A stretch of DNA of 64,000 nucleotides from Neobacillus massiliamazoniensis (GTDB lineage: Bacteria; Bacillota; Bacilli; Bacillales; Cytobacillaceae): the NCBI RefSeq assembly GCF_001048695.1, contig NZ_CVRB01000002.1, positions 930,001 to 994,000 on the forward strand. Direction: 5' to 3'. Made by a program: the position numbers and the translations under genes. Under the pieces are notes generated by a model. The model made no database searches. It was not told the origin of the DNA and saw only the letters and a program-made list of their open reading frames with translations. This document shows, piece by piece, positions 15,325 to 60,732 of this stretch. How positions within the stretch are numbered: position 1 is the first letter of the stretch; each line of letters begins with the position of its first letter.

Positions 15325-15828
15325 ATGGATGAAAAAAAGAAAATGGGCTTTAATATTATAAAAAGCGATCCAACGGACGGGCATAAGGGCTACGGAAAGG
15401 GTGCCTTGAGCCTTGATAATGTTTCGCCTGTCATCATTGATGTTGAATCAGGTGATGCGGTCATTGATATCGGTGCAATGCATGCTCGCAGTGCGGTCGA
15501 AAAAGGCATTAAATTTTTGCCAAATAAAGAAGAAGTGCCGAACGGCAAACCGTATTGGCTCGTCTGGGTTACGATTGACCGGAGAGTGGACGGTCCTTAT
15601 TATGCAGGGGTGACCGCTTGTGAAATGACGGTGGACCGGGAAATCCGCCGCGGCTACAAGTCACTTCCTGAGCATGTGAATCGGATGGATAAATCGCTGA
15701 AACGACACATCATCGTTGACCACATGGATGAGAAATCGAAGAAAATTTTAGCCGATTTCCTCCGTGGACACAATGAACAGCTTTGGAACCATTCCTCTGA
15801 TGAACTGAAAAAAAGCTTATTAGTGTAA
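15325..15828 (+). CDS. ywhD: YwhD family protein
   Basis: This 167-residue protein is homologous in pattern to YwhD of Bacillus (KMGFNIIKSDPTDGHKGYG, IDIGAMHARSAVEKGIKF, NGKPYWLVWVTIDR). It has no signal peptide or membrane segment, and its function is unknown. Its position directly after ywhC is conserved. The ribosome-binding site is GGGGGGTAGAG. Confidence 0.9.
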   Translation: MDEKKKMGFNIIKSDPTDGHKGYGKGALSLDNVSPVIIDVESGDAVIDIGAMHARSAVEKGIKFLPNKEEVPNGKPYWLVWVTIDRRVDGPYYAGVTACEMTVDREIRRGYKSLPEHVNRMDKSLKRHIIVDHMDEKSKKILADFLRGHNEQLWNHSSDELKKSLLV

Positions 15829-15900
15829 CAATAGTCATTGTAGTTTTTAGATAAAATGGTAAAATAATATCTAATGTGGAAAACACAGGTAATCTAGGAC

Positions 15901-15938
15901 ACAAAAAAGCTTCGGAGTGATTCCGGAGCTTTTTTGTT
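15901..15938. terminator. Bidirectional terminator between ywhD and pbpG
   Basis: A long inverted repeat, ACAAAAAAGCTTCGGA/TCCGGAGCTTTTTTGT with a small loop, has an A-run and a T-run on both sides. It can end ywhD and, read in reverse, pbpG. Confidence 0.88.
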
Positions 15939-15949
15939 TTTAACTTTGG

Positions 15950-16084
15950 TTATGCGCAACTTTAAGACGGTTATCCACAACTTTTATGAAGTTATCCACG
16001 ACTTTAAGGTGGTTATCCACAGTTTTTATGAAGTTATCCGCAACTTTCAGACGGCCATACGCAACTTTTATGCAGCTATCCACT
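15950..16084. repeat. Seven-unit 21-bp array of DnaA-box-like sequences
   Basis: A 9-mer resembling the DnaA box begins at 15950, 15971, 15992, 16013, 16034, 16055 and 16076, an exact 21-bp period. The words are TTATGCGCA, TTATCCACA, TTATCCACG, TTATCCACA, TTATCCGCA, CCATACGCA and CTATCCACT. Two are perfect DnaA boxes and two differ from one at a single base. Between the boxes the fill is mostly AACTTTTATGAAG or ACTTTAAGGTGG. A 144-codon open frame running through it gives a 7-residue repeat and is not thought to be a gene. Confidence 0.85.
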
Positions 16085-16119
16085 ACTCAAGGGCACTCCA
16101 TCCGACAGTAACCCCTTCC

Positions 16120-18183
16120 CTATCCTCCAAAGATCCGCTTATACCACGGAACTTTTTTCTGTGTTTGTCCCTTTTTAACAGAATTGGAGTCTTTGTTCTT
16201 CAAATGTTCGGTGCAATATTCGGTTGGTTCGGTCCCGGTTACAAAATAGGTAAACCGGCGAACGGGGCAATCCTTGGTAGCGAGCTTTCCATTGGAAGGG
16301 TCGACATACACACCGACAACGCCTTCTTTTGGCGGCTTAAAGGCTTTAACGGGCTTATCCTTTAAGGCTTCCTCCATAAATTGCGCCCAGATATTTTTGG
16401 CATATGATTTTTCGGCGACAAGGTCAATTGGCTTTGCGGCATCGTAGCCGGCCCAGACAGCCGTGGCAAGCTGTGGCGAGAAACCAATCATCCAGCTGTC
16501 TGTTTCTGTAGATCCAGATTTTCCGGCATAGGGACGAGTCAGGTCGTTTATGACGCTGTTGCCGGTAACTGTTGTATAGCCATTTAATTTTGGGTCGAAA
16601 ATTCCTGACAGCATCTGGGTCATGACATACGCTTTGGCTGGGTCCAAAACTTTTTCTTTATCATCTTTCTTTTCGTAAATAATGTGTCCGTTGTAATCTT
16701 CTACTTTTGTAATAACTGTCGGGCTGATCTTTTTTCCGCCATTGGCAAACATGGCGTAAGCATTAGCCATTTCAATGACCCTTACTCCAGAGGTGCCAAG
16801 GGCGAGGGAAGGAACCTGCTCCATTTTTGTGGAAATGCCAAACCGTTTCGCCGATTGAATGAGCGCATCCTCCCCTAAAAACAAGTGTGTTTTGATGGCA
16901 AAAATATTATCAGACACGGCCAATGCCTGCGCCATCGTAATTTCCCCATCCGCATACTTATCATTATAATTATGCGGGGTGTAGTCAGGGCTGCCATCAA
17001 AATGAAAGGTCGTATACTCGCTCCTCATTGTCGTTGATGGGGTAAACCCGTGTTCGAGCGCCGCATAATAGAGGATCGGTTTAATCGTCGATCCAGGCTG
17101 GCGGATGGCCTGGACCGCACGGTTAAACGGGCTTTTTTCATAATCTTTGCCGCCAATCATCGCTTTAACCTGGCCGTTTTTCGGATCGATGGCGACTAAA
17201 GCGACTTGGATCTCCGACGAATTGGACATATTCTTCTTGATTTGCTTTTCGGCTGCTTCCTGGTCTTTCACGTTCAGGGTGGTAAACACTTTTAACCCAC
17301 CCAGCGCAATCGTACTGTCACTTAAATGAAGTTGATTTTTCAACGCATTTTTTACCGCATCCTGAAAGTATGGTGCCACCTTTACTTGCTGATTGGAATA
17401 AGCACCGACAAGTGTTAACGGTGTTTGCTCAGCTTGTTGGGCTGCCTTTTTTGAGATGTATTCGTTTTTTACCATGCTGTTTAAAATAAAGTTCTGGCGT
17501 TCTTTGGCATTTTTCATCGAGGACAGCGGTGAATAAAGCTCGGGTCCCTTTGGAATGCCGGCAAGCATCGATGCCTCTGCTAAGGTTAAATCGGCTGCAT
17601 TTTTACCAAAATAATATTGGCTGGCGGCTTGGACTCCATACGCGCCATTTCCGTAATAAATCGTATTTAAATAGCCTTCAAGAATATCTTTTTTCGAATA
17701 ATTCATTTCGATACGGATGGTATAGAAGGCTTCAAGCAGCTTGCGCTTCCACGTCTTATCATGCGCGAGAAAAAGATTTCTTGCGTATTGCTGGGTGATG
17801 GTGCTTGCTCCTTGAACCTTCCCAAAAGCGCGGATATCTGCCAACACGGCACCGCCGATTCGTTTAACATCAAAGCCATGATGGTAATAAAAATTTTTAT
17901 CCTCAATTGAAACGGTCGCGTTCACTAAATCTGGCGAGATATTCTTAAGTGAAACCCAATAGCGCTTCTGACCGCTGTTGCTCTCTCCAATTAAGGTGCC
18001 ATCATCGGAAAAAAATAAGGTCGATTGCGGAACCGCGAGCGGGGGCGCACCTAATATTTTTGCATAGGCGAGAATACCGAAAAAAAGAATCAGCACACAA
18101 ATCATGCCAATCAAACTGATGATAATCAGCGCACGCAAATACTTAATCGTTTTTCGAAACCCTTGATCGGTCATGATTTCCAT
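16120..18183 (-). CDS. pbpG: Class A penicillin-binding protein PbpG (PBP2d type)
   Basis: This 687-residue bifunctional peptidoglycan synthase has a membrane anchor at residues ~18-40. The GT51 glycosyltransferase domain shows Glu94 in EDKNFYYHHGFD and GASTITQQYARNLFL. The transpeptidase domain has Ser365 and Lys368 (GSTIKP), SDN at 424-426 and KSGST at 555-559. A basic C-terminus follows. In B. subtilis pbpG is a forespore-expressed PBP next to speE, as here. Start 18183 is backed by AGAGAGGTGATG; it is convergent with ywhD. Confidence 0.93.
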   Translation of the reverse strand: MEIMTDQGFRKTIKYLRALIIISLIGMICVLILFFGILAYAKILGAPPLAVPQSTLFFSDDGTLIGESNSGQKRYWVSLKNISPDLVNATVSIEDKNFYYHHGFDVKRIGGAVLADIRAFGKVQGASTITQQYARNLFLAHDKTWKRKLLEAFYTIRIEMNYSKKDILEGYLNTIYYGNGAYGVQAASQYYFGKNAADLTLAEASMLAGIPKGPELYSPLSSMKNAKERQNFILNSMVKNEYISKKAAQQAEQTPLTLVGAYSNQQVKVAPYFQDAVKNALKNQLHLSDSTIALGGLKVFTTLNVKDQEAAEKQIKKNMSNSSEIQVALVAIDPKNGQVKAMIGGKDYEKSPFNRAVQAIRQPGSTIKPILYYAALEHGFTPSTTMRSEYTTFHFDGSPDYTPHNYNDKYADGEITMAQALAVSDNIFAIKTHLFLGEDALIQSAKRFGISTKMEQVPSLALGTSGVRVIEMANAYAMFANGGKKISPTVITKVEDYNGHIIYEKKDDKEKVLDPAKAYVMTQMLSGIFDPKLNGYTTVTGNSVINDLTRPYAGKSGSTETDSWMIGFSPQLATAVWAGYDAAKPIDLVAEKSYAKNIWAQFMEEALKDKPVKAFKPPKEGVVGVYVDPSNGKLATKDCPVRRFTYFVTGTEPTEYCTEHLKNKDSNSVKKGQTQKKVPWYKRIFGG

Positions 18184-24856: not shown

Positions 24857-25160
24857 TAGAAAAGCGAAAGCGCCTTGTTCAGCCCCGACAGGCATAAGAC
24901 GCTTCCAAAAAGAAGGAGTTTTTTTCCTTCGTTTTGGAAGTGGCTTATGACCCGAGGGGCTAGGCGCTGGAGCTGGACAAAGAAAAGCGGAAGCGCCTTG
25001 TTCAGGGGCGACAGGCATAAGACGAGCCGGCGTGAAGGTTGTTCTTTAACCTTCATGAAGGATTGGCTTATGACCCGAGGGGCTAGGCGCTGAAGCTGGA
25101 CAAAGAAAAGCAGTAACGCGGTATTGCTTACTCTTATGTAGCTAGACAATTCTCGAAATC
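24857..25160. repeat. Two tandem family A repeats plus partial third
   Basis: Copy one is at about 24860-24978 and copy two at about 24986-25100. They share their outer ends (AAAAGCGGAAGCGCCTTGTT ... GGCTAGGCGCTGGAGCTGGA) but have different hairpin cores: an AAGACGCTTCC type and an AAGACGAGCCGGCGTGAAGG type. A short remnant (AAAAGCAGTAACGCGG ... GTAGCTAGACAATTCTCGA) follows. They separate the divergent clsB and fadF. Confidence 0.9.
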
Positions 25161-28878: not shown

Positions 28879-29040
28879 TTCGCGCATAACTTGGTTGGAT
28901 TCGCGCATATCTCGCTTCAAATCGCGCATAATTCGGCAGTAATAATCGATTCGCAGATAAAATGTAAGTTTCGTAGATATATCCGTTCAATACACGGATA
29001 AAACAAAATAATCGCAGATAAATTCGTTCAATTCGCAGAT
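28879..29040. repeat. Array of TCGCGCATAA/TCGCAGATAA words, ~21-bp period
   Basis: TCGCGCATA begins at 28879, 28900 and 28921. TCGCAGATA or a near match follows at 28950, 28970, 28991, 29011 and 29032. Spacing is 20-21 bp except for one 29-bp step. It fills the 203-bp gap between the thiolase and mmgB within an apparent operon. Confidence 0.85.
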
Positions 29041-39961: not shown

Positions 39962-40480
39962 GGCACATGAGTGGGTCAAAACGGCACATAAGTGGGTCAA
40001 AACGGCACATAAGTGGGTCAAAACGGCACATAAAATCCAAAAATGGCACATAAAATGGAAAAACGGCACATATCGTATTTAAAGCAGGGGAAATCTGCAA
40101 AAAAGTAACTAAAAAGAGCAGCAGCCACAGTCAGAAAACAGGCGTTTTAGAAGGATTGGATAGACTTTTAAGAGAAACGGCACATAAAAAAGAAAAATGG
40201 CACATAAGTGGGCCAAAACGGCACATAAAATCCAAAAATGGCACATAAAATGGAAAAACGGCACATATCGTATTTAAAGCAGTGGAAATCTGCAAAAAAA
40301 TAACTAAAAAGAGCAGCAGCCAGTCAGAAAACAGGCGTTTTAGAAGGATCGGATAGACTTTTAAGAGAAACGGCACATAAAAAAGAAAAATGGCACATAA
40401 GTGGGTCAAAACGGCACATAAAATCCAAAAATGGCACATATATCGGAAAAATGGCACATATATCGGAAAAACGGCACATA
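39962..40480. repeat. GGCACATA array with ~193-bp higher-order repeat
   Basis: GGCACATA or GGCACATG begins at 39962, 39983, 40004, 40025, 40045, 40065; 40179, 40199, 40220, 40240, 40260; 40372, 40392, 40413, 40433, 40453 and 40473. Steps are 20 or 21 bp inside each block. Blocks are separated by a repeated ~105-bp sequence containing TAACTAAAAAGAGCAGCAGC and GGATAGACTTTTAAGAGAAA. The first three units share the 21-mer period GGCACATAAGTGGGTCAAAA. No gene is present; the gap lies between the convergent pyrG and ywjG. Confidence 0.93.
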
Positions 40481-40537
40481 AATCCAATCGCCGTCGGTCC
40501 GCCACAACAAAAAAACGGCCTTTCTCCTGGCCGCTTT

Positions 40538-49663: not shown

Positions 49664-49731
49664 TATGTGCTGTTTTTCAAATTTATGTGCCATTATTAAA
49701 ATATATGTGCCAAAACAACCTACTTATGTGC
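49664..49731. repeat. Short TATGTGCC array, 20-bp period
   Basis: TATGTGC begins at 49664, 49684, 49704 and 49725. The word is the reverse complement of the GGCACATA of the arrays at 40 kb and 60 kb. It lies between the lipoprotein terminator and the prfA promoter. Confidence 0.82.
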
Positions 49732-53484: not shown

Positions 53485-53931
53485 ATGCAGTCAGTGATTC
53501 GCAAAGCAGATAAAGAAGATTTGAAAAAGGTAAGAGAGTTTCTCACGAACGCTCAGCTGGGGACAGAGGGACTAACGGAGGAAAGCATGGACTATTTTTT
53601 GCTGCTAGAGGATGGGGACGGGAATATCAGGGGATCACTGGGGATGGAAGTGTTTGCTAGATATGGTTTGCTGCGTTCGTTAGTAGTTACATCCAGCCAA
53701 GCAGAGAAGGAAATTCTAATTCTACTAAATCAGATGCTGCAGTTGGCAAAGGAAAAGAGAATGAGCAGCATGTTTTTAGCGACAAATAAGAGCGCAGCGC
53801 TTCCTTTTTTTGAGGTGCTGGGCTTTCAAAGACTCGAGCAGGAAAAATTACCAAGTGAATTTTACAGCGCTGAGCATATAAAGCATATTTTAAATGTGGA
53901 TAACTCCTATTTTTTGAAAATTTCGCTATAG
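53485..53931 (+). CDS. ywlB: GNAT-family acetyltransferase YwlB
   Basis: This 148-residue protein has an N-terminal IRKADKEDLKKVREFL and a GNAT-like core (GSLGMEVFARYGLLRSLVV, LATNKSAALPFFEVLGFQRL). The substrate is unknown. AGGTGGTAAAGG precedes the ATG. It sits before ywlC as in B. subtilis. DnaA-box-like sequences begin within its last codons. Confidence 0.82.
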   Translation: MQSVIRKADKEDLKKVREFLTNAQLGTEGLTEESMDYFLLLEDGDGNIRGSLGMEVFARYGLLRSLVVTSSQAEKEILILLNQMLQLAKEKRMSSMFLATNKSAALPFFEVLGFQRLEQEKLPSEFYSAEHIKHILNVDNSYFLKISL

Positions 53932-54134
53932 TTGTGGATAGATTCGCAAAGTTATCCACTATTTCAACAAGGTTATTCACAATTTGTGGATAAAGCTTGT
54001 ATTTAACCACACCTTCTTATATACTTGCAAACGTAAATATGAGGTAAGGTACGTTTTATATAAAGGTGGATCAAGATGAATACAAAGGTTTGGAAAGTGG
54101 ATAAGTATGTGGATAATCTCGAAAATAATCCACA
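53895..54134. promoter_or_regulatory. DnaA-box cluster at the ywlC start
   Basis: Boxes (consensus TTATCCACA, reverse TGTGGATAA): perfect at 53895-53903, 53985-53993 and 54108-54116. TTATTCACA is at 53973-53981. One-mismatch boxes are at 53933-53941, 53952-53960, 54096-54104 and 54126-54134. Eight boxes fall in 240 bp, spanning the end of ywlB, the intergenic space and the first codons of ywlC. DnaA binding near ywlC is known in B. subtilis as far as I recall. Confidence 0.88.
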
Positions 54135-55127: not shown

Positions 55128-55387
55128 CTACATTCCCGAAGTGAGCCAAAATTCAATATTTCGGGAAACTAGAAGGTTTCTACGTTCATGAAAAGCGGTT
55201 AGAAATAAGATTTCGTTTACGTAGACACCTTCTACGTTCACGAAAAGCGATTGAAAACAGGAAATTGTTTACGTAGACACACTCTACATTCCCGAAATCG
55301 GGTAAAATTCAAATCTATGGGAAACTAGAGGCATTTTACGTGCTCGAAAAAGGGAAAATAGCATGATTCGGGTCACGTAAATTTGTA
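55128..55387. repeat. Five tandem 52-bp units with internal inverted repeats
   Basis: Units begin at 55128, 55180, 55232, 55284 and 55336, exactly 52 bp apart. Each contains an inverted repeat, but the arms differ: TTCCCGAA/TTCGGGAA (unit 1), CTACGT/ACGTAG (units 2 and 3), TTCCC/GGGAA with CTA/TAG (unit 4), TTTACGTG/CACGTAAA plus CGAA/TTCG (unit 5). It lies between ywlC and mntP and contains no gene. Confidence 0.9.
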
Positions 55388-60025: not shown

Positions 60026-60069
60026 TTTTGAATGGGTGGGGCGGTCGGCGTCGCGAATCCTGGACAAAT

Positions 60070-60732
60070 GGCACATAAAAGTGAAAAACGGCACATATAT
60101 TTTTAAAATGGCACATAAAATGAAAAAACGGCACATAAAACACAAAAATGGCACATATATTGGAAAAACGGCACATATCGTAATTCAAGCAGGTGAAATC
60201 CTTAAAAAAGTAACTGAAAAGAGCGGCTGCCAGTCGGAAACCAGGCGTCTTAGATGATTAGGATAGACTTTTGAAAGAAACGGCACATAAAAATGGAAAA
60301 TAGCACATAAGTGGGTGAAAACGGCACATAAAACACAAAAATGGCACATATATTGGAAAAACGGCACATATCGTAATTCAAGTAGGTGAAATCCTTAAAA
60401 AAGTAACTGAAAGAGCGGTTGCCAGTCGGAAAACAGACTTCTTAGATGATTAGGATAGACTTTTGAAAGAAACGGCACATAAAAATGGAAAATGGCACAT
60501 AAGTGGGTGAAAACGGCACATAAAACACAAAAATGGCACATAAATTTGAAAAACGGCACATATCGTAATTCAAGCAGGTTAAATCTTTCAAAAAGTAACT
60601 GAAAAGAGCGATTGCCAGTCGGAAAACAGGCGTCTTAGATGATTAGGATAGACTTTTGAAAGAAACGGCATAAAAATGGAAAATGGCACATAAAAGTGAA
60701 AAAACGGCACATATCCTGTCCAAAACGGCACA
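60070..60732. repeat. GGCACATA array with ~192-bp higher-order repeat, second locus
   Basis: GGCACATA begins at 60070, 60090, 60110, 60130, 60150 and 60170 (exact 20-bp step). Three further blocks (from 60282, 60474 and 60666) are separated by ~105-bp sequences containing GTAACTGAAAAGAGCG, GCCAGTCGGAAA and TTAGATGATTAGGATAGACT. The block step is 192 bp. The long inter-block sequence is related to that at 40.1 kb. No gene is seen between upp and the protease. Confidence 0.93.

Follow-up and report, generated by a model that had tools for sequence, protein, structure and literature searches.

Between ywhD and pbpG of Neobacillus massiliamazoniensis, seven words resembling the DnaA box TTATNCACA follow one another at a fixed distance, raising the question of whether they form a site for DnaA or belong to a repeat whose word only looks like such a box. 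The locus was analysed within a window of 64,000 nucleotides, the whole stretch of DNA under study. The convergent arrangement of the two flanking genes described in an earlier note on this DNA was confirmed by protein family matches, with ywhD (15325–15828, + strand) matching Pfam YwhD and the pbpG-like gene (16120–18183, − strand) matching class A penicillin-binding proteins (TIGR02074). A terminator scan placed a terminator-like hairpin 3′ of ywhD (15901–15937, + strand), and a hairpin of similar look was seen by eye 3′ of ywhD in congeners. The same note had located the repeats beyond a bidirectional terminator; they do lie past the hairpin for ywhD, but its bidirectional character was not borne out by the scan, in which only the + strand gave a terminator score. 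The hairpin may be the end of pbpG transcripts as well. Seen from pbpG, the repeats are located between the stop codon (16120) and the hairpin, and are therefore probably within the pbpG 3′UTR. As anticipated, no promoter-like sites were found when positions 15700–16300 were scanned. An open frame of 143 codons that starts at TTG (15934–16365) runs through the array, which lies between two convergent genes.

The placement of the seven words at 15950, 15971, 15992, 16013, 16034, 16055 and 16076 was reproduced, every step being exactly 21 bp. From unit 1 to unit 7 they read TTATGCGCA, TTATCCACA, TTATCCACG, TTATCCACA, TTATCCGCA, CCATACGCA and CTATCCACT, so that the two perfect words already reported (unit 2, 15971–15979, and unit 4, 16013–16021, both on the + strand) and the two words one base off TTATCCACA were recovered, while units 6 and 7 are poor matches to it. 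Position 7 of the word is A in four units and G in three. Self-identity of the array was 79/117 (0.68) at lag 21 and 74/96 (0.77) at lag 42, compared with a top identity of 0.46 at any lag from 10 to 63 in 1000 dinucleotide shuffles, confirming that the periodicity is real and not due to chance. Tandem Repeats Finder (TRF) reported the array with a score of 166 and a period of 42 (span 15949–16087). As the spacers alternate between an AAGACGG type and a TATGAAG type, 42 bp is the better repeat unit. Furthermore, the ACTTT that follows the box on its 3′ side is as well conserved as the box itself: with column values averaged by hand, the nine box columns carry about 1.5 bits, the next five (ACTTT) about 1.5 and the spacer about 1.0. 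Since box and ACTTT columns are equally informative, the repeated element is best described as a 14-bp core, TTATNCRCAACTTT, and not as a 9-bp box, and the feature (15949–16087, + strand) as a 21-bp tandem array of seven units with a 42-bp super-period.

Repeats of constant size in this genome and its relatives

Tandem repeats of constant size, 20–21 nt and 52 nt, have been described in Bacillus (Subirana and Messeguer 2021, PMC8161180). They form several families per genome, are mostly non-coding, use species-specific words and include multiples at 40–41 nt; a length of 20–21 nt was equated with two helical turns, and no function is known for the repeats (PMC8161180). The class is defined by at least four equal repeats of 20–21 nt, and the present array has seven units separated by six 21-bp steps. 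Judged by its sequence features, the array fits this constant-size, variable-sequence class as a new member, as this genome shares with it the period, the occurrence of several families, a species-specific word, an apparently mostly non-coding location and 40–42-bp multiples. In some species of that study, as here, 20–21-nt arrays occur alongside 52-nt arrays.

The extent of the class in this genome was estimated with TRF in an 864-kb sample consisting of the window and forty 20-kb stretches. A total of 76 arrays was found, of which 50 were counted as non-coding after leaving out those overlapping predicted ORFs by at least half (70% or more in the family work). Thirty-three of these had a period of the 20–22-bp type (multiples included), 14 were of the 51–53-bp type and 3 were others; the own arrays collapsed into 12 families, showing that several families of the same length coexist. 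Extension of the sample to 1.264 Mb with 20 more stretches raised the count to 94 arrays and left the leading sizes unchanged. Within the window itself, TRF placed arrays of the same class at 39962–40484 (GGCACATAA word, periods 20, 21 and 41) and 60061–60713 (GGCACATAA word), and short arrays at 49664–49712 (same class, TATGTGCC word) and 28879–28935 (TTCGCGCATAAC word, 21 bp), all given on the + strand. A perfect TTATNCACA was present in 1 of the 33 non-coding arrays of the 20–22-bp type, the target array alone, and TTATCCGCAACTTT recurred at two places elsewhere in the genome (C2:26926 and 26968, and C1:1412365) with neighbours at about 21 bp. The alternative offered by the earlier note, that this is one of several 20–21-bp arrays whose word happens to look like a DnaA box, is well supported.

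The own-genome arrays occupy convergent, co-directional and divergent gaps. Convergent context was seen in 9 of the 28 array rows for which context is known, compared with 72 of 425 background gaps, although the rows are not independent. The core lies on the − strand in 23 of 33 own rows, many rows being fragments of a single array; in these 33 rows the strand of the core followed no clear rule with respect to gene direction or the G-rich strand.

Several further observations were made on the distribution of the arrays. Seen after the fact, 25 of the 32 rows of the 20–22-bp type scoring at least 75 fall in six of 61 stretches, some rows being pieces of one array, and the array-rich regions are C1:1.10–1.42 Mb (L062, L079, L063 and L064) and C2:0.88–0.994 Mb (L056 and the window). 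No arrays of this type and score were found in the 220 kb sampled from C3, and C3 carries a terminus-like skew flip. Arrays of 51–52 bp were present at 55178–55297 of the window and in many other stretches of the genome; by eye, several of their units contain a word and a near-inverted copy of it (e.g., TTTACGTGACC and GGGCACGTAAA), unlike the single-strand 20–21-bp class.

The ywhD gene was then used as an anchor in relatives. Matches were obtained in 36 same-genus genomes and 30 loci were compared (own genome included in both counts), and a wider set of 110 loci combined these 30 with 80 named loci that partly overlap them. Among named genomes, the closest orthologues of ywhD were those of Neobacillus. 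A convergent pbpG-like match was located downstream of ywhD in all 110 loci. No array was detected by TRF in the ywhD–pbpG gap of any of the 29 congeners in oriented loci, the single two-copy match (L038) overlapping the pbpG match, and none of the 29 had a perfect TTATNCACA within 300 bp after ywhD, compared with two at the own locus. Among the 80 named loci, six (L156, L158, L168, L174, L186 and L196) carried 20-bp or 21-bp arrays of other words in this gap, with 2.8 to 6.3 copies. The conservation of the 21-bp phase together with the box bases for which the earlier note had proposed a search was thus not found in these loci: the spacing recurs in the gap and the box bases do not. A separate 123-bp repeat of the window (24858–25111, 2.1 copies) has look-alikes, by eye, in the ywhD–pbpG gap of some congeners.

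The word of the array is likewise restricted. Pairs of CNCAACTTT occurred three times in the own genome and once each in two of 60 other genomes of the genus, in one of which CGCAACTTT recurs at 20 bp and the TTAT part is missing; the second carries CTCAACTTT. By this genus-wide search the array has the species-specific word expected of the 20–21-nt class.

A common core was found between families. For the core search, 56 arrays (from the own genome, congeners and other families of the order, with six at orthologous ywhD loci) were clustered into 29 families, which superseded an earlier, looser clustering into 13 groups that had chained unlike arrays. The best common 10-mer of the 29 families, TATCCGCGAA, reached 8.33 bits, compared with 7.01 ± 0.18 (maximum 7.43) in a null of 100 dinucleotide-shuffled sets. 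With the target left out and each consensus cut to 21 nt, the values were 7.79 and 6.55 ± 0.21 (maximum 7.07). The shared core was weaker in subsets: the best motif of the 17 non-own families was TTATCAGCGA (7.86, a value equalled or exceeded by 1 of 100 null sets), and the 11 own families other than the target gave a different best motif, ATTTTCGAAT. The match of the target array to the class core is TTATCCRCAACTTT, its DnaA-like word being one or two changes away from TATCCGCGAA, and the likeness to a DnaA box can be explained by a single transition, which turns TTATCCGCA into TTATCCACA.

Two copies of TATCCGCGA separated by a gap of 6–20 were found 523 times across the order, where 15 of 397 genomes and 7 of 135 genera contained such pairs, while a reversed-pattern control gave one occurrence in the 397 genomes. 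These pairs are concentrated, with 377 of the 523 in one genome (G180) and 382 of the 397 genomes containing none. Among the 83 pairs listed, and with spacings of 15–29 allowed, the distance was 20 in 66, 21 in 16 and 26 in one. The spacers between the cores vary widely by eye, the intact cores being partly selected by the search, as the pairs were retrieved by exact core. In 11 hand-picked arrays of 4–14 units each, core columns were better conserved than the remaining columns in 11/11 (mean 0.93 compared with 0.75); the matrix placing the core had been derived from consensus sequences that overlap with this set, and some arrays were divided into units over part of their length only (in L049, 5 units out of about 15). 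The ACTTT tail of the target was also seen elsewhere, as TATCCGCGAACTTTT in the order-wide pairs and as TATCTGCGACTTT in own-genome arrays, and since this tail is not required by a DnaA box, its recurrence counts in favour of the class core. The published account of the class reported no sequence conservation across species and a short characteristic word within species only (PMC8161180), whereas here the degenerate core TATCCGCGAA appears to be common to array families across genera, which would be the new element of this analysis. No cross-genus core of the TATCCGCGAA type was found in print among the papers listed, those matching the core word being unrelated by title.

It was also considered that the arrays might be neutral minisatellites, in which slippage creates the units, the mutational mechanism dictates the period and there is no binding. 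This would agree with the absence of the array from congeners, with the 42-bp super-period as a sign of recent copying, and with the partial conservation of sister 52-nt arrays between strains (PMC8161180). It would not, however, account readily for the advantage of core columns over spacers in all of the hand-picked arrays, for the same core in several genera, or for the single listed spacing outside 20–21 bp, and we regard it as rather unlikely, although mutational origin and slow decay could be the source of part of the pattern.

Comparison with DnaA-box clusters

The other proposal of the earlier note was a site for DnaA titration or replication timing. A site dedicated to such a role would be comparable to datA or to an oriC-distal DnaA-box cluster. 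Box density at the locus is in its favour. When 150-bp windows were scored by the number of TTATNCACA words with at most one mismatch plus the number of perfect ones, the array locus scored 7 and was tied third with two others in the 1.264 Mb sampled, behind a cluster at L055 (10) and ywlC (9); several good boxes thus stand close together, the five counted words including two perfect ones and one (15875, − strand) that falls outside the array. The clusters sharing third place are the irregular ones in L063 and L273. Moreover, perfect TTATCCACA pairs, present in 48 of 60 related genomes, favour the same phase, with 41 at 21 bp and 45 at 22 bp among 98 listed. Most of them are recurring sequences at two kinds of site, presumably (own-genome hits included) oriC and the region upstream of rlmH. 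The density rank and the 21/22-bp phase of these pairs make DnaA binding to the array possible, and such binding may be incidental.

A conserved DnaA-box cluster was available for comparison in the same window (53895–54134, boxes on both strands, irregular spacing), covering sequence upstream of ywlC, a gene of the threonylcarbamoyl-AMP synthase family, and part of the gene itself. In B. subtilis, DnaA binds upstream of ywlC and appears to repress the gene (PMC4447404). Matches to ywlC were obtained in 40/40 genomes, and in all 30 loci compared the cluster retained three to five perfect boxes, which occupy both strands and whose irregular positions are conserved. The same test thus detects a conserved DnaA cluster where one is present. 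The array shares with the Bacillus clusters (PMC4447404) the word TTATNCACA and, through the relatives, perfect pairs at 21–22 bp; however, it has none of the three traits of the ywlC cluster (conservation, boxes on both strands and irregular spacing), and it lies downstream of both of its neighbours. Its words all share one strand and recur with an exact period, and 0/29 congeners have a perfect box at the locus compared with 30/30 loci for ywlC. Further points against a DnaA site are the lack of a promoter-like site at 15700–16300, a conservation that runs past the box, and the mixture of G and A at position 7 of the word. Neither ywhD nor pbpG is among the DnaA regions named in the available part of PMC4447404. 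A DnaA site was therefore rejected as the main reading on the grounds of locus conservation, strand, exact period and a core longer than the box. A titration or timing role fares badly, given the missing gap array in 29/29 congeners, and is considered improbable. As the array fits the 20–21-base class with a core word of its own, its DnaA likeness is probably incidental. Overall, the interpretation given in the earlier note was partly supported.

Two of the high-scoring clusters were characterised further. That of L063 (1556–1689, at about 1.3016 Mb of C1) has six near-DnaA words on one strand with irregular spacing and is a candidate DnaA site; it lies downstream of an epimerase-like frame, presumably mnaA-like. 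That of L273 (1901–1999) has six near-DnaA words on both strands.

An RNA element transcribed in the pbpG 3′UTR and acting as a small RNA or stability element, which the position between stop codon and hairpin and the transcription proposed for the 52-nt class (PMC8161180) might suggest, is highly improbable, given that neither strand showed excess folding (z −0.43 and +0.23) and that own-genome arrays are found in gaps of all three orientations.

Proposed role of the arrays

The likely explanation is that the array is a member of the 20–21-nt class and serves as an interchangeable, one-faced platform for a putative DNA-binding protein other than DnaA. Each core would be a weak site for one such protein, and with a spacing of two helical turns all cores would share one helix face, allowing several molecules of the protein to bind side by side. 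Many such arrays would be interchangeable, with a role that is probably in chromosome organisation, which would account for the gain and loss of individual arrays under a lasting core and spacing. The constant phase, the retention of the core over the spacers and the turnover of arrays are all consistent with platforms of this kind.

Plasmid iterons, too, are direct repeats that each span about two helical turns and share one helix face, and the array resembles them in this respect. Iterons, however, adjoin a Rep gene and an origin, whereas the neighbours of the array are ywhD and pbpG, with no Rep gene.

More tentatively, the 20–21-nt repeats of Bacillales as a whole might be phased arrays for one conserved, putative chromosome-organising protein with a degenerate TTATCCGCGAA core, the arrays of this genome being concentrated in one or two regions of the chromosome; we put this forward as a possibility that is less probable than not. 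The target array by itself is ordinary for its class, and its resemblance to a DnaA-box cluster illustrates that scans for DnaA boxes may also report satellites of similar appearance. For a class of repeats without known function, a core that crosses genera at a fixed two-turn spacing would provide a concrete bait for the protein.
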